64,000 bases of DNA from Pedosphaera sp. (GCA_028293285.1 JAQGPC010000177.1:1-64000), one strand, 5' to 3'. Positions 1,227 through 19,168 are shown, counted from the first letter of the stretch. Numbers and translations: made by a program. The notes: generated by a model from the letters alone, not told the origin.

Positions 1227-2114
1227 CTACCACTTCAAGACGGGCGGGAAGAACTCCTTGATGAGGTCATCGTAAAAGGGACGGAGTTCTTTCAAGTTGG
1301 GACGCTCGGCACTCTTGGTGTAGAGATCGTAAGGATTGAATTTCTGCACCCATTCAAACATGGCGCGGTCTTGATCGTTCATGAGGTAGTCATATTCCCC
1401 GTCCCGGTGCGCGGGATAAAAGGAATGGTAACGGATCATGTAGAGGGCTTCCTTGGGCAGATAATCCTTCGTGACATGATACAGATACTCGTCGTGACCC
1501 CAGGACATGTTGACCTTGTCCAGGCCGCAGTTTTCTTCGTAGATGCCGAGGCGCTTTTGATATTGGGGGTTTTGGCTGTCGGGATTGTCGGCGAAGAAAG
1601 AGCGGAAAACAATTTTATCGGAATAGGCTGCGCCGACAGGGAACGTATCGCCCACGACTGCCCATTGGGGCTCGCCGTAGAGGCAGAGAATTTTGCCGAG
1701 ATCATGAATCAAGCCGGTAAGAATGAACCAGCGGGGACGGCCGTCTTTGCGGATTTGCTCGGCGGTTTGCAACAGATGTTCCAATTGCGAAAGGTCAGTG
1801 TCGGGATCACTGTCGTCCACGAGCGTATTCAAATATTCCAAGGCTTCCCAGATGCTCATTTGACGGCGATTTAAACCGAGAAACTCGCGCCGTTTGTTTT
1901 GGACGAAATCGAAAGTCTGGTGACGATGATTGAGCCGGTAAAATTCGCGCACGGTGGGGCGCGCGGTATTTTCGTAATCGCGGAACTGCTCCTGCTTTTT
2001 ATCGGGATTGGTCCCAACGAGGTTTTCCGGATAACGTTCCTTCACGAAATCATCCCACTCTTCAAGGTTGGCGAGGGGAGCGGTTTGGGAAATCTGATTC
2101 TCGGGCGTTGACAT
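1227..2114 (-). CDS. myo-inositol oxygenase (MIOX family)
   Basis: 295 residues, close to the roughly 285 of animal MIOX. The enzyme (EC 1.13.99.1) cleaves myo-inositol with O2 to D-glucuronate using a mixed-valent di-iron centre. All six metal ligands of the mouse enzyme can be placed: H113, H137-D138 (in GLIHDLGK), H207 (SWGHDEY), H230 (RYHSFYPAH) and D263 (NPYDLYTK). The spacing matches that known from the mouse protein with small shifts. MIOX is mainly known from eukaryotes and appears sporadically in bacteria, including this phylum. The gene precedes an ABC permease/binding-protein pair on the same strand and faces a Gfo/Idh dehydrogenase, which suggests an inositol or related cyclitol pathway (inference). 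Confidence 0.93.
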
Positions 2115-2203
2115 AACTCTATAGATTCAGGGTTCTCTACGTTACGGATGACTAAACTACTTTCCTGCGATTTACCCGGAGTCGCAAGCGCAAAATGAAA
2201 GGA

Positions 2204-3214
2204 TTAAGCCCGTCTTTGTCTGAGCTTATCCAGCCCTACTGCAAGGATGATGATAAATCCAATGACAATTTCCTGCATGTAAGTGGGGATGTCCATTTGG
2301 TTGGAGCCGCTACGCAACACGGCCATGATTAAGGCCCCAATCATCGAGCCGAGAATACCGCCACTTCCACCGCTGAGGCTTGCGCCGCCAATGACCACGG
2401 CGGCGATGATGTCCAATTCGAGGCCGACGGCAACGGTGGGATCGCCTTGAGTGAGTCGCGATAGTTGCATCAGGCCGGCCAAGCCGCAGAACAAACCTCC
2501 AAGAGTGTAGATAATAATTTTTTGCAGGGGGACGCGAATGCCGCAGAGGCGGGCGGCGGCTTCATTCGAGCCGATGGCAAAAATATAACGGCCAAAAACG
2601 GTGCGGCGCATCACGACGGACATGACGCAGGCCAGTCCGATGGTAATCCAAACGCCGGGCGGTAACGGAAAAAATTGAGTGGGTTCATTGGCAGCCATGA
2701 AAGTGCTGACGGAGGTTTCAGGAGGATTAACGATTTGACTGTTGGCCAGCCATTTGGCGGTGCCGCGGGCGATGCCCATCATTCCTAGAGTGACAATGAA
2801 AGGCATCATTTTGAAACCGGCGATAATGGTGCCGTTGAAAAATCCAATCAAGCCACCAGCCAATATGGTGAGAATGACCACGAAAAACGGAGAGACGTTA
2901 TGCACCAGCAGGGTGGCACCGACCACGCTGGTCAGGGCGATGCTGGAGCCGACGCTCAAGTCAATGCCGCCGCTGATGATGATCATGGTCATGCCCAGTG
3001 CGCCGATGGCCACGATGACAGTTTGAGTCAGGATGATTTTGAGGTTTCCGCCAGTGAGAAAGAACGGCCTCGTTTGCGGCAGGACGGAAAATAATCCGAC
3101 TACGATCAGCAAACCAAAGAAAGGGCCAAAGGCGGTCAATAGCAGGCGCAGGCTGACATTTTTCCGGATGGGAGCCGGACTTTCATTCTTTGCAATGGGT
3201 AATGCCGGAATCAC
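2204..3214 (-). CDS. ribose-type ABC transporter permease (RbsC family)
   Basis: 336 residues, very hydrophobic, with about 8-10 membrane segments and the signature stretches of the CUT2 (ribose/xylose/inositol) permease family: GGIDLSVGSSIALTSVVGA near the N-terminus and VVIGGASLSGGSGGILG near the C-terminus. It forms the inner-membrane channel of a sugar importer. The binding-protein gene lies directly upstream, with 6 bases between them, so they are co-transcribed. No ATPase (RbsA-type) gene is adjacent. The substrate is unknown; inositol is suggested only by the MIOX gene downstream. Confidence 0.92.
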   Translation of the reverse strand: MIPALPIAKNESPAPIRKNVSLRLLLTAFGPFFGLLIVVGLFSVLPQTRPFFLTGGNLKIILTQTVIVAIGALGMTMIIISGGIDLSVGSSIALTSVVGATLLVHNVSPFFVVILTILAGGLIGFFNGTIIAGFKMMPFIVTLGMMGIARGTAKWLANSQIVNPPETSVSTFMAANEPTQFFPLPPGVWITIGLACVMSVVMRRTVFGRYIFAIGSNEAAARLCGIRVPLQKIIIYTLGGLFCGLAGLMQLSRLTQGDPTVAVGLELDIIAAVVIGGASLSGGSGGILGSMIGALIMAVLRSGSNQMDIPTYMQEIVIGFIIILAVGLDKLRQRRA

Positions 3215-3220
3215 GGCATC

Positions 3221-4213
3221 TTACTTCAGGTATTTATCGAGCGGAGGATAAAGGAGGTCTTTGATATCCGGTTCGGTCATGTTTTCGGGAGTGGCAATGT
3301 GGACGCCGGTATCAATGCGGGTTTCAACTTTTTCACCACGCAGATATTTTACCAAAGTTAAAACTCCCAAGTAACCCATGCGGACCGGGTCTTGCAGAAC
3401 CAAGCCTTGGACATCGCCATTTTTCATATCAATCACGGATTGCGAGCCGGCATCGAAGCCGACCATTTTGACTTTGCCCCCGGCTTTGCCGATATCTTTC
3501 AAAGCTTTGGTCATGGCAACCGTGGGTGGTTCACACGGACAGAAGATGCCATTCACTTCCTTACCGAAACGATTGAGAAGATTTTGCGAAGCTTGATAAG
3601 CAGTTTCCCGAGTGGCCCCTGCGTGTTGATCGGAGGAGATGACTTTGATATCAGGAAATTTCTTTTTGAGGGTATCCATGAAGCCGGATTCGCGTTCCTC
3701 GGTGCTGGCGGAACCGACGGCGTAGCGGAGCATAATAACATTGCCTTTGCCATCGAGCAACTGGCCCATCCGCTCGGCTGCGAGTTGGCCACCTTTATAA
3801 TTATCCGTGGCGACAAAGCTCACATATTTATCGGTCTTCAACCCAGAATCAAAAATTACGACCGGGATTTTCGCCTTTTGTGCATTGGCGACAGGCTTCA
3901 CCAATGCCTGCGAATCCAACGGGGCGAGGACGATGCCGCTGACACGGCGGGTGGTGAAATTTTCCACGACTTGAATTTGTTGGTCGCGGTCATCTTCGCG
4001 CAAGGGGCCTTTCCAGATCAGGTCGAGCTTGAGTCCTTTTTCCTGTAATTCACGTTGGGCTTTGACTGCGCCAGCGTGAATGGATTGCCAGTAATCGTGC
4101 GTGGTTCCCTTGGGTATGACGGCGATGGTGTAGGAAGTTTCCGCTGCCTCTGAGCCAATGGCGGTTCCAAGGAGAAAGAGCGCTGAGAGAAAGTATCGCT
4201 TAAACGGGTTCAT
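3221..4213 (-). CDS. sugar ABC transporter substrate-binding protein (RbsB/periplasmic-binding type 1)
   Basis: 330 residues beginning with a signal peptide (hydrophobic FLSALFLLGTAIGS, likely cleavage after SEA). The mature part starts with the family's first strand (TIAVIPKGTTHDYW) and keeps the DNYKGGQLAAERM helix typical of ribose/galactose/inositol-binding proteins. It would capture a sugar or polyol in the periplasm and deliver it to the permease encoded downstream. First gene of the two-gene operon. Its upstream neighbour on the same strand is unrelated, with about 90 bases between them, so a promoter probably lies in 4214-4305. The missing ATPase must be encoded elsewhere or shared. 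Confidence 0.92.
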   Translation of the reverse strand: MNPFKRYFLSALFLLGTAIGSEAAETSYTIAVIPKGTTHDYWQSIHAGAVKAQRELQEKGLKLDLIWKGPLREDDRDQQIQVVENFTTRRVSGIVLAPLDSQALVKPVANAQKAKIPVVIFDSGLKTDKYVSFVATDNYKGGQLAAERMGQLLDGKGNVIMLRYAVGSASTEERESGFMDTLKKKFPDIKVISSDQHAGATRETAYQASQNLLNRFGKEVNGIFCPCEPPTVAMTKALKDIGKAGGKVKMVGFDAGSQSVIDMKNGDVQGLVLQDPVRMGYLGVLTLVKYLRGEKVETRIDTGVHIATPENMTEPDIKDLLYPPLDKYLK

Positions 4214-4305: not shown

Positions 4306-5745
4306 TTACTGCAATTTGAACGGCATCCCAATGATGCGCGAATAAAAAGCGGACAGAGTTTGCGCGGTATGTTGGTCGCGAATATCCGGACCGAACTGGA
4401 AGGTGGCCGCAGCATCGAAGTTGTGGATCATCATGCAATAAGTGCCATTCGCCATGATGCCCAGCAACTCGCCGGTTTTGCTGAAAACCAGATCGCCGCT
4501 TGAGGGATTGAATTTGCCGAATAAACCCTTCAGAGAATTGCGATCCATTTTGACATAGCGTGGCGTGGATGTATCGATCTGAAACTTGCATTCGCCGTAA
4601 TAACCTTCGCGCGCGCCAACGAGCACGGCGTCTTGAAATTTGAACGGAGCGACAGAAGTGCGATAAACCTTGCCGCCGAGTTCTCGGGCTTGGGCTTCGG
4701 TGACGGGCATCAACACTACGCGCGGGTCCAGCAAGTGAAAAGAAAGCGAGCGAATGGGGACAGACGCGGTGCCACGGCTGAGCGTGCCGGTAAGGCTCTC
4801 CCAATCCGTGCCCGGACTCCAGAAAATCAAAGGGGTATCTTGCACATGACCCAACGCATAGGTATTGGCACCATCGGAGACCAGGACGGTTCCAGTTTCT
4901 TTTCGTTTGTTGGACTCAATGCCGAAAATGCCGGCATGGGTGGCAGCGAAGCTGGCTTGGACCCGGTTGGTCATGAAATCATTGAAAATCGTATTAGGTG
5001 CCAAGGGGCGGTTCTCGCGAATTTCCTGGGCGAGTTGTCCTGATTTGCTGGCGAGGGCTTTGACGCCTTCAGCCAGGGTGGCTTTTTCCGCACGCTCGGC
5101 TGTGACTTGCTCCTGCATGCGGGCGGCGAGTTCGGTGGCGGAGCGTTTCTCGACTTCCGCCAGTTGGAGTTGGCTGGCCAAGCGTTGTTTTTCAGCCTGA
5201 GATGCCTGGCTGTTTTTCTCCAGTTCCGCCAGTTGTGCTTTCAGCAAGGCGGCTTGTTCCGCCTGTTTGCGGGCTTCCGCTTCCAGTGCGGCGAGTTTCT
5301 CCTTCGAGATCAAGCTTTCCGTGGAAGTGCTTTGGAGTTGTTGGTTCAACGTTTGGAGATTGGTTTGGGCAGTGGCGAATTGTTGCTGAAGATTGGCTTG
5401 CTGCTGTTGAAGCTGCTTCGTTTGTTGCTCGCGAGATTGCAGTTGCTGTTGGAAAGTCTGGATTTGCTTGTCGCGCTCGCTTAACAGCGCTTCCTGTCGA
5501 TTGGCGGCATCGCGGGTCTTGGCAAGTTCGCCGAGCAATTGTTCCTGATTTTTGCGTTCCTCGTTTAACGCGAGCCGCATGACGTCACCGAGGTCCCGAC
5601 GGCTGTCAATTTGATTGGTCGCCATGTCCATCTTGACCTCGCGCGCGGCTCCATTGTCGGCGACCTTGTTGATGTCCACCGTGGAAAAAGCCAGCAGGCT
5701 GACCAGCAGGAAATCGCAAATGACGATGAGGATGCTTCGGTTCAT
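4306..5745 (-). CDS. Asp-containing membrane helix + coiled coil + trypsin-like domain protein
   Basis: 479 residues. A short N-terminal tail leads into one membrane helix at about residues 4-23 with an acidic residue inside it (D11, in VICDFLLVSLLAF). The pattern resembles the MotB helix (ADFMTAMMAFF), in which the Asp carries ions. Residues about 60-245 are Gln/Glu/Lys/Ala-rich heptads, a long coiled coil. Residues about 265-440 look like a degenerate trypsin fold: GTVLVSDG then GH(300)V, LLD(340)PRVVLMPV, and NPSSGDLVFSKTGELLGI where S415/S416 fall at the catalytic serine position. The start overlaps the stop of the upstream membrane gene by 4 bases (ATGA), so the two are translationally coupled. 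Function unknown; a stator-like pair is an inference. Confidence 0.8.
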   Translation of the reverse strand: MNRSILIVICDFLLVSLLAFSTVDINKVADNGAAREVKMDMATNQIDSRRDLGDVMRLALNEERKNQEQLLGELAKTRDAANRQEALLSERDKQIQTFQQQLQSREQQTKQLQQQQANLQQQFATAQTNLQTLNQQLQSTSTESLISKEKLAALEAEARKQAEQAALLKAQLAELEKNSQASQAEKQRLASQLQLAEVEKRSATELAARMQEQVTAERAEKATLAEGVKALASKSGQLAQEIRENRPLAPNTIFNDFMTNRVQASFAATHAGIFGIESNKRKETGTVLVSDGANTYALGHVQDTPLIFWSPGTDWESLTGTLSRGTASVPIRSLSFHLLDPRVVLMPVTEAQARELGGKVYRTSVAPFKFQDAVLVGAREGYYGECKFQIDTSTPRYVKMDRNSLKGLFGKFNPSSGDLVFSKTGELLGIMANGTYCMMIHNFDAAATFQFGPDIRDQHTAQTLSAFYSRIIGMPFKLQ

Positions 5746-7466
5746 GGCGTGGTGGCGAATGAGCGCGCGGGAGTGGAAGCGACGGTTTCAGCCTGGGCAT
5801 CTGCTTCGGCGGCGAGGAGCATTTTCCGGCGCGCGGGGCGCAGGTGGAAAATTTTGAATACCGAAACAAAGACAATGCCGAAGGCCGTAGAGGAATAGGC
5901 GACCATCAGGCCCGGCTTGAATACAACCAGCGAAGCGAGGATGAACGAAACAATCGTGCCCGCAAAGCCGAGGTAGAGGCCGGCGTCGAACAAATGCTCT
6001 TCGTTTTCCAGCAGCCGCAATTTGAGGCGCGGCGGCACGTTTTGGCGGCGGATTTCGGCGAGCTTGACAAGGCAAGCGATGTAGATGAGCCCCTGGATCA
6101 CGAAGAACAACAGGAGGGGGATTATTAGACTTGGATTCATAAGCGAGGGATGAGCTTGGGTGATTCCAGCAGGGGCCACACTGCCGGCCATGGGCAGATG
6201 CAGTCGAAAGGGAAGTTCCACTTTCTGGCTGTCCTGAGCGAGAAACGGCTCACTCAGGACAAGGACCACGAGCAGGAAACCGAGCGCAAATAAAATTTTG
6301 CGGGCAACATGAAAGCCGCGCACTTGCAATGGCTGTTCCAAAGCTGAGACGGCGGGGCGCATTGAATAGACGGCGGCCGAGACCAGGAATCCGCCCGCGA
6401 GATAGAAAAACCATTTTATTGCCATTGCCAGCCAGGGCATCCGCCAGCAATAGGTTGTAGTGAAATCAAAGAATGCGCCGAAGGGATTATACTGTGCGAG
6501 ATGCGAGCGAGCATCGGAATGATAGAGGCGTTGATTGCGTTGCAATAGTTCATTTACTCCACCTGCGTTGAAACGAAGGCTGGCACCGAGATCCTTCAAT
6601 CCGGTCTGGCTAAAGTTCATGAGATATTTAGACACGGCGGAGGGTTGGCGGGAAATTTCCACGGCGGAGAAAAGCATGGGCAGTTGGTCGCCGGCTTTGC
6701 GGACTTGATTGGCAAGGAGGCGGAGTGTGTTGGCGTCTTCTATATGGCTGACAAACGCGCCTAGTTGGCTCCAGTTAAATCTCTGGCCGAGTGACATGAG
6801 GTCGAGCAATGCTTCTTCGAGTCGTTGCGGGTTGCCGCCACGATTAGCTTCCGTAGCAAGGGTAAGCAATGTCTCACGCAAGCTGGTCGTCAGACGGCCT
6901 TCCTCAGATAAAAGTCCGGTCACTGAAATTGCTGCATCAAATGCCTGTCCGGAGGCGGATGAAGAGGGCGGGAAAAGAACGGTGTTGGTCAAGGCGCGGC
7001 AACGCAAGAGTTCCTGCACGAGAGGATTTGACGAGGAGCGCAAGAGTTCCAGCACTTTGTTCCGATTTTCCAGTCGCACCACAAATTCCGTAAAAGGCTC
7101 GGAACCGGTGTTTGGTAATTTAAGATTAGGCAGGCTTTCCAAATGCGGTGAGGGAGCGCCTAAGGCGATGGCAATGGGAGATTGTTTCGCGGAACTATTT
7201 ATAGCCGATTGAAGTTTCTCACGATTGGGAAGCGACTCGGCTTGCGCCGCTTGGGAGAGCAATTGGGCGGCCCCGAGTTGTTGATTGCTCGCCAGTTCGA
7301 GCCCGCGCTCAACCAGACTAGGCGTGGTACTCCCAGCTCTGGCGATGACGCTGGCGTCTGTCGCGCGGAGATGAATTGGCATCAACCAGCCGCAGACCAA
7401 CATCACCGCACCAAGCAGGGCGCATATAAAAAACCATACCCAACGGTTCATCATGAAGTCATTCAA
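5742..7466 (-). CDS. polytopic membrane protein with MotA/ExbB-like C-terminal helices
   Basis: 574 residues. One membrane helix near residues 8-30, a large soluble segment (about 31-340, probably periplasmic), then helices near 345-366, 390-408, 447-466, 496-515 and 520-540. The last pair carries GFAGTIVSFIL and AYSSTAFGIVF. These resemble the pore helices of MotA/TolQ/ExbB proteins, where a GT motif in one helix and Thr/Ser residues in the next line the ion path. The first Met is followed by two more at residues 5-6, so the start could be 12-15 bases later. It is first in a two-gene operon with the coiled-coil/trypsin-like protein. The MotA/ExbB relation is motif-level only and needs structural comparison. 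Confidence 0.72.
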   Translation of the reverse strand: MNDFMMNRWVWFFICALLGAVMLVCGWLMPIHLRATDASVIARAGSTTPSLVERGLELASNQQLGAAQLLSQAAQAESLPNREKLQSAINSSAKQSPIAIALGAPSPHLESLPNLKLPNTGSEPFTEFVVRLENRNKVLELLRSSSNPLVQELLRCRALTNTVLFPPSSSASGQAFDAAISVTGLLSEEGRLTTSLRETLLTLATEANRGGNPQRLEEALLDLMSLGQRFNWSQLGAFVSHIEDANTLRLLANQVRKAGDQLPMLFSAVEISRQPSAVSKYLMNFSQTGLKDLGASLRFNAGGVNELLQRNQRLYHSDARSHLAQYNPFGAFFDFTTTYCWRMPWLAMAIKWFFYLAGGFLVSAAVYSMRPAVSALEQPLQVRGFHVARKILFALGFLLVVLVLSEPFLAQDSQKVELPFRLHLPMAGSVAPAGITQAHPSLMNPSLIIPLLLFFVIQGLIYIACLVKLAEIRRQNVPPRLKLRLLENEEHLFDAGLYLGFAGTIVSFILASLVVFKPGLMVAYSSTAFGIVFVSVFKIFHLRPARRKMLLAAEADAQAETVASTPARSFATTP

Positions 7467-18103: not shown

Positions 18104-19168
18104 ATGAACGCGAATATTTTTGATGATTTGGAGCAAGGGCAGGGGAAGGTCCAACCGGTGTCGAGCGAGGCGGAAATTTCCGCTGCGTCTCCGGCTGCAC
18201 AGACTGCGCCGTTGAACGATGGCGAGTTGATGGATGCTTATTCGAAGGCGGTGGTCCATGCCGCCGAGCAGGTCAGTCATTCGGTGGTGAATATTGAAGT
18301 GCGCAAGAAAGTGACTGGTCGTGGAGAAGTCCAGGCGGGGAGCGGGTCGGGATTTATCATCAGCCCGGATGGACTGGTGTTGACGAATAGTCATGTGGTT
18401 CATGGCGCTGATAAGATTGAGGTGACGCTGGATGACGGGCGTCGGCCGGACGCGCATTTGATCGGAGAAGATCCGGAGACGGATTTGGCGGTGTTACGCA
18501 TTTATGCGCCGAATTTGAAAGCGGTGAAGCTGGGTGAATCGAAGGATTTGCGGGTGGGACAACTGGCCATCGCGATCGGAAATCCATACGGGTTTCAATA
18601 CACGGTGACGGCGGGAGTGGTGAGTGCGCTGGGCCGGTCGTTGCGCGCGAGTTCGGGACGGTTGATGGACGATATCCTCCAGACCGATGCGGCGTTGAAT
18701 CCGGGAAATTCGGGCGGGCCATTGGTGAATTCGCGAGGCGAAGTGATTGGCGTGAATAGCGCGGTGATTTTGCCGGCGCAAGGAATCTGCTTCGCGATTG
18801 CGATTGATACGGCGAAGTATGTGGCTGGTTGGCTGATCAAGGACGGAAAAATTCGGCGGAGCTACATCGGTGTCGGCGGACAGAATGTGAAGATTCATCG
18901 GCGAGTGGTGCGGTTTCATGGGCTGCCGGTGGAGACGGGTTTGCTGGTGGTATCGGTTGAACCGAAGAGTCCGGCGGAAGCGGCGGGATTGCAGGTGGGC
19001 GATGTTATTTATGAATTCGATGGACAACCGGTGACGGGCATTGATGCGTTGCACAAGCTGCTGACGGAATCGCGGATTGAAGCGCGGACGTTTGTGAGAG
19101 TCATCCGGCACACGGAGAAGATTACGATGGCAATTGTGCCGCGGGAATCGCAGTGGAAGGCGGAGTAA
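18104..19168 (+). CDS. HtrA/DegP-type serine protease with one PDZ domain
   Basis: 354 residues. The catalytic triad is H97 (LTNSHVVHG), D127 (DPETDLAVLRI) and S203 (NPGNSGGPLV). A single PDZ domain covers roughly residues 255-345 (VEPKSPAEAAGLQVGDVIYEF). HtrA proteases degrade or refold damaged proteins. The N-terminus has no signal peptide or membrane helix, so unlike classical DegP this copy appears cytoplasmic, unless the start lies elsewhere. The ATG follows a GGGAGAAAGCG stretch. Codon use matches its neighbours. Confidence 0.93.
   Translation: MNANIFDDLEQGQGKVQPVSSEAEISAASPAAQTAPLNDGELMDAYSKAVVHAAEQVSHSVVNIEVRKKVTGRGEVQAGSGSGFIISPDGLVLTNSHVVHGADKIEVTLDDGRRPDAHLIGEDPETDLAVLRIYAPNLKAVKLGESKDLRVGQLAIAIGNPYGFQYTVTAGVVSALGRSLRASSGRLMDDILQTDAALNPGNSGGPLVNSRGEVIGVNSAVILPAQGICFAIAIDTAKYVAGWLIKDGKIRRSYIGVGGQNVKIHRRVVRFHGLPVETGLLVVSVEPKSPAEAAGLQVGDVIYEFDGQPVTGIDALHKLLTESRIEARTFVRVIRHTEKITMAIVPRESQWKAE

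Follow-up and report, generated by a model that had tools for sequence, protein, structure and literature searches.

The gene pair and its reading frames

The window, by which we mean the whole 64,000-nucleotide stretch of DNA analysed, carries on its minus strand two overlapping genes, here called A and B. They raise the question of whether a multi-helix membrane protein and a single-helix partner with a coiled coil and a protease-like head work together as an ion-driven motor, and what such a motor would move. The known kinds of ion-driven A/B motor are few, and what they drive at a distance differs from one to the next: flagella, import of nutrients, integrity of the outer membrane, gliding or defence against phages. 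In MotA/B, ExbB/D, TolQ/R and ZorA/B, a multi-helix channel is paired with a protein carrying an Asp in its only helix. The positions of the two genes are as follows.

5742..7451, minus strand: gene A, 569 amino acids, channel-like subunit (open reading frame; relatives align from the ATG at 7451)
4306..5745, minus strand: gene B, 479 amino acids, single N-terminal helix, coiled coil and trypsin-fold head (open reading frame)
5742..5745, minus strand: overlap of the A stop and the B start, ATGA, 4 bases (sequence)

Both overlapping reading frames described in the initial annotation were confirmed in place, on the minus strand. Its gene A lies where it was put, and it is the length that we would revise: an alternative TTG start at 7466, 15 bases earlier, gives a product of 574 amino acids with five extra residues, but relatives start at the second ATG, so that gene A most likely spans 5742–7451. 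The same ATGA overlap was found in 82 of the A/B pairs first collected. Gene A gave no match above cut-off in Pfam or NCBIfam and nothing in PADLOC or PDB sequence searches; for gene B, searches of Pfam, NCBIfam, PADLOC and PDB sequences returned coiled-coil matches only, with no family above cut-off.

Distribution of the pair

A first scan of named bacterial genomes yielded 15 loci, all of them in Verrucomicrobiota-type metagenome bins, and wherever both genes were complete A and B overlapped in the same manner. Searches with an A profile found the gene in 54 of 146 genomes of the order, in 105 of 384 of the class and in 126 of the 388 genomes drawn across the phylum, and a search with the short form of A found it in 97 of 198 genomes of one distant class; there is about one copy of A per genome. 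Further away, the match is confined to the last ~120 residues of A; in these distant lineages the protein is mostly ~170–190 residues long, with four helices and a B protein directly after it. This shrinkage to a four-helix form of ~180 residues indicates that the channel part is the conserved core.

Co-occurrence of the two genes, a check proposed with the initial annotation, was borne out across the phylum: B is the next gene after A at 226 of the 231 distinct loci. Four of the remaining five have an unlinked A, and in one B is found further downstream. The unlinked cases, from two genera, are G366 (L172), G698 (L263), G372 (L183) and G720 (L266); G366 and G372 were both searched, and in each B sits elsewhere in the genome. 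A search of plasmids with the short A gave no match, and no A/B pair was found in viral contigs. It should also be mentioned that in genome G340 (C12:288478-289240) the A copy is broken by several stop codons, the gene being otherwise intact in that family.

Judged by sequence comparison, A/B is a phylum-wide, undescribed two-gene family. We found no account of such a system in the literature searched, a coverage that leaves out most subscription journals.

Membrane helix and coiled coil of B

5683..5736, minus strand: transmembrane helix of B, residues 4–21 (hydropathy 2.69 over residues 5–21)
5713..5715, minus strand: codon of D11, mid-helix aspartate (invariant)
5029..5601, minus strand: coiled coil of B, residues about 49–239, about 28 nm if straight (3.5-residue period; coiled-coil matches only in Pfam and NCBIfam)

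The sole hydrophobic helix of B, residues 5–21, contains D11, and hydropathy together with loop charges places the N end inside and the coil and head outside. All relatives of B start with a short basic stretch that leads into one helix, and residue 11, in this helix, is Asp. The aspartate was present in 223 of 223 pairs found automatically, in three more found by eye and in the window itself, as counted with a search pattern that permitted other residues at this position. The single MotB-like helix with D11 had been noted before, and the loss of D11 in orthologues, named at that time as evidence against the stator reading, was not seen. The invariance of D11 and the adjacency of the pair in nearly every genome that has it are well beyond chance.

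Behind the helix, we found a coil of ~190 residues with a heptad period, in agreement with the ~185 residues given earlier; the 3.5-residue period has a power of 10.0, compared with at most 3.8 at the other periods tested. In the examples measured, the coil of B comprises 170–330 residues, or 25–49 nm if straight. The B proteins of L090, L093 and L098 have coils of 290–330 residues, and their length of 43–49 nm, if straight, exceeds the usual periplasm.

Topology and conserved core of A

According to hydropathy and loop charges, A has six predicted helices with cytoplasmic N and C ends.

7389..7439, minus strand: helix TM0 of A, residues 5–21 (hydropathy; AF2 helix 3–23)
6432..7388, minus strand: periplasmic all-helical domain, residues 22–340 (AF2 pLDDT mostly 74–94)
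6246..6431, minus strand: extra helix pair, residues about 341–402 (hydropathy)
6066..6116, minus strand: core helix TM1, residues 446–462, with invariant Q453 (hydropathy and alignment)
5922..5987, minus strand: core helix TM2, residues 489–510, with D489, Y493, G495, G498 and T499 (conservation)
5955..5957, minus strand: codon of T499, in register with ExbB T148 (hhalign)
5847..5912, minus strand: core helix TM3, residues 514–535, with Y519, S521, T522, G525 and K533 (conservation)
5886..5888, minus strand: codon of T522, in register with ExbB T181 (hhalign)

The periplasmic domain (residues 22–340) is absent from the short A proteins of distant lineages. Over 150 sequences, Q453 in TM1 is conserved at 100%. 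In TM2, the same set gives 99% for D489, 100% for Y493 and G495, 97% for G498 and 100% for T or S at position 499; in TM3, it gives 100% for Y519 and G525, 98% for S521, T (79%) or N (21%) at position 522 and 100% for K or R at position 533. The pore-type motifs of the last two helices, GT (G498-T499) and SST (S520-S521-T522) in the numbering of the 569-residue protein, fall inside the stretch of residues 497–533 for which MotA/ExbB-like GT and T/S motifs had been claimed. The conserved residues of A lie inside helices, and little of the protein is cytoplasmic; the loop that joins TM1 and TM2 on the cytoplasmic side has ~30 residues, far below the size found in ExbB or MotA.

In the AF2 model of full-length A, the core helices have a pLDDT of 43–72. 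Foldseek found no PDB match to this model, and in a VIA search ExbB (6ye4) appeared at Z 6.6, a value within the helical noise for core helices modelled at low confidence.

Comparison with known ion-driven motors

A and its relatives gave no match to PF01618 above the curated cut-off, and a search of the whole genome with this profile found three other genes, A not being among them. In hhalign, a profile of 62 A cores scored 26.0 against one of 32 ExbB/TolQ proteins, more than any of 200 helix-preserving shuffles; a larger comparison, 150 A cores against 40 ExbB/TolQ proteins, scored 27.2, above 299 of 300 such shuffles. The probability of the match to ExbB is only 9–14%; TM2 and TM3 are aligned, with T499 on T148 and T522 on T181, and a second, weak match places TM1 of A on TM1 of ExbB. 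The A profile gave no signal with MotA (score 17.8, within the null). The profile check proposed with the initial annotation came out weak. We regard homology of A to ExbB/TolQ as suggestive only. It looks as if A works like the ExbB/MotA family, to which it may or may not belong.

For ExbBD, Asp25 of ExbD and Thr148 and Thr181 of ExbB have been called essential (PMC12905483); in ZorAB, the Asp of ZorB is packed against a ring of Ser/Thr residues in ZorA (PMC11890865). Like ExbBD and TolQR, the pair consists of adjacent genes, the multi-helix subunit has Gly-Thr and Thr-x-x-Gly in its last two helices, and the partner has one N-terminal helix with a mid-membrane Asp. Unlike them, A lacks PF01618 similarity and a large cytoplasmic helical domain and has an extra N-terminal helix, to which the window-type A adds the periplasmic domain and two more helices; B differs in its long coiled coil and trypsin-fold head, and no adjoining TonB or TolA gene was seen. 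With MotAB and PomAB, the pair shares the four-helix short A with N and C ends inside, the Asp-Phe of the B helix, as in MotB, and the gene overlap, whereas A lacks the torque-generating cytoplasmic domain and B the OmpA-like peptidoglycan-binding domain; the head of B gave no OmpA match. ZorAB resembles it in the A/B layout, the Asp in the B helix and the Ser/Thr in the A pore helices and differs in the long cytoplasmic tail of A and the peptidoglycan-binding domain of B, neither of which is present here, and the pair has no PADLOC match and no visible defence context. The best precedent for a stator reading of A/B is GldLM (PMC9389320), a 5:2 motor that shows no obvious sequence homology to MotAB and in which the B subunit forms a long shaft in the periplasm. 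The GldM shaft, however, is formed by four folded domains rather than a coiled coil, and it has no trypsin-fold head.

We also considered coevolution between the two proteins. An analysis of 148 pairs placed couplings between the two proteins at the top, and these were roughly consistent in depth (p about 0.03–0.07). With 224 pairs, the coupling of T499 with position 14 of B ranked first of all, but the depth test failed (p 0.1–0.5, main setting), and for this reason coevolution is not used here as support for the pair. Random pairing is an improper control for such an analysis, since it breaks phylogeny too.

Overall, the stator-like pair proposed initially is upheld by adjacency and co-inheritance, by the invariant mid-membrane Asp of B, by invariant Gly and near-invariant Thr/Ser in the last two helices of A, and by the register with T148 and T181 of ExbB. 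We propose that A and B form an ion-driven, stator-type inner-membrane complex, a family of its own that would work like MotAB, ExbBD, ZorAB and GldLM, and we assign this reading a probability of about 0.6.

Downstream kinase and the possibility of a static sensor

Among 86 short-A loci, 58 have a Ser/Thr protein kinase immediately after B, with gaps mostly of −22 to 60 bases. It has a kinase domain and a membrane helix, followed in some loci by an FGE-sulfatase-like domain. Two of the 58 loci serve as examples.

L080:2534-5149: kinase next to a short-A pair
L134:109-2727: kinase next to a short-A pair

Of the 41 long-A loci that could be assessed, 40 have no kinase after B. The one long-A exception, in a distant locus (L280:4489-6001, plus strand), is a gene after B with an FHA-like start and a kinase-type motif. 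The other neighbours of the pair vary among relatives and are housekeeping genes. The kinase neighbour suggests that the complex takes part in envelope signalling or is controlled through phosphorylation.

A rival reading is a static transmembrane sensor or receptor without ion-driven movement, in which the head and the periplasmic domain of A would sense the envelope, the coil would signal inward, D11 would be a polar packing residue keeping the helices together and the kinase would be the output in distant lineages. The frequency of the kinase as an operon partner, in some cases with the FGE-sulfatase-like domain, fits this account, a pseudo-enzyme head would suit ligand binding, and the sequence link of A to known motors is weak. 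However, an invariant mid-membrane Asp that occurs together with Gly-Thr and Thr-x-x-Gly motifs in register with those of ExbB marks an ion-driven pair rather than a receptor; moreover, the conserved residues of A are confined to its helices, with little protein on the cytoplasmic side, and the long-A loci do almost entirely without the kinase. We consider a static sensor unlikely and retain the ion-driven complex as the preferred reading.

Fold and catalytic positions of the B head

4306..5034, minus strand: head of B, residues 238–479, trypsin/HtrA-type double beta barrel (AF2, Foldseek, VIA)
4846..4848, minus strand: codon of H300, triad-His position (head alignment)
4726..4728, minus strand: codon of D340, triad-Asp position (D in 66/67 window-type heads; D or E in 43/55 short-A heads)
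4501..4503, minus strand: codon of S415, triad-Ser position, not conserved (head alignment)
4492..4497, minus strand: codons of G417-D418, best conserved point of the head (G 126/126, D 123/126)

The trypsin-like domain recognized earlier in B is confirmed at the level of fold. The AF2 model of the head has a pLDDT of 82 and a pTM of 0.82; Foldseek retrieved HtrA, DegP, DegS and Deg structures (E about 1e-5, probability 1.0), and VIA retrieved HtrA-type and other trypsin-fold domains at Z 10–12. Compared with HtrA, DegP, DegS and other trypsin-fold domains, the head shares the fold but differs in its non-conserved catalytic Ser and in having no PDZ domain. The profile of the head matched the HtrA of the window itself only locally, around FNPSSGDLV / LNPGNSGGPLV. 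That protein, a separate HtrA-type serine protease at 18104–19168 on the plus strand, has an intact GNSGGP motif and looks catalytic, unlike the B head.

As to the triad, H300, D340 and S415 do occupy triad-like positions, as had been suggested; S416, offered as an alternative for the serine, does not, and S415 is not conserved. His is found at position 300 in 62 of 67 window-type heads and in two of four distant long-A heads; it is not among the common residues at this position in 55 short-A heads, and distant lineages have mostly lost it. At position 415, 46 of the 67 window-type heads have Ser and the others mainly K (11), T (4) or R (2), with N, A and V also occurring, and the complete His-Asp-Ser triad is likewise present in 46 of 67. 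In 59 other heads, position 415 is mostly E, with Ser in at most one. The nucleophile position is preceded by Pro414, and the oxyanion position is without Gly.

These data bear on the version put forward in the initial annotation, an active serine protease that an ion-driven motor would deliver or gate, possibly for envelope proteolysis. The trypsin/HtrA fold speaks for it, and so do the triad-like residues H, D and S of the window and of the 46 window-type heads. Against it, ~30% of window-type heads have another residue (K, T, R, N, A or V) in place of S415, and in other lineages this serine is nearly always replaced while the rest of the head is kept; the Pro before the nucleophile position, the missing oxyanion Gly and the absence of a Pfam trypsin match also count against it. 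We rejected the active protease on triad conservation and consider it very improbable: with its catalytic Ser not conserved although the rest of the head is kept, the B head is not supported as a protease. The most fitting view of it is that of a pseudo-protease with a binding role.

Defence, the other role raised initially, is scarcely credible in the form of a Zorya-like system against phages: ZorAB is also an ion-driven A/B pair (PMC11890865), but PADLOC gave nothing for A and coiled-coil matches only for B, with no ZorA or ZorB profile match, and the pair, at about one copy per genome, is widely present in the phylum among varied housekeeping neighbours.

Proposed mechanism

In the ion-driven complex that we favour, several A subunits would surround the N-terminal helices of a B dimer through TM1–TM3, and an ion, most likely a proton, would pass between Asp11 of B and a Thr/Ser ring of A (T499, S521, T522). 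Binding and release of the ion would step A and B against each other, and the coiled coil of B would transmit this movement across some 25 nm or more of periplasm to the head. There, close to the cell wall or the outer membrane, the trypsin-fold head would serve for binding rather than for proteolysis. The A of the window's class also has a helical collar of ~320 residues in the periplasm; that of distant lineages is the channel core only, in an operon that often ends with a transmembrane Ser/Thr kinase, and the complex there would probably take part in envelope signalling or be regulated by phosphorylation.

Taken as a whole, this would be an undescribed, phylum-wide family of ion-driven motors encoded by a two-gene operon, turning or pulling a coiled-coil shaft with a pseudo-protease head across the periplasm and wired in some lineages to a transmembrane Ser/Thr kinase, that is, a powered envelope mechanosensor. 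We offer this fuller picture tentatively, at clearly less than even odds. If it is true, the motor principle has found a further use, with a new shaft and a head of pseudo-enzyme type, in a system that is unannotated and phylum-wide; an A of about 170–190 residues would be a natural minimal version of such a motor, and a motor of this kind would be linked to a protein kinase.

Genes downstream of the pair in the window

An inositol-type cluster downstream of B is not common to relatives of the pair. In the window, the region 1227–4213 on the minus strand, directly downstream of B, encodes a myo-inositol oxygenase (PF05153), a sugar-type ABC permease and a periplasmic sugar-binding protein and looks like a cluster for inositol uptake and use.
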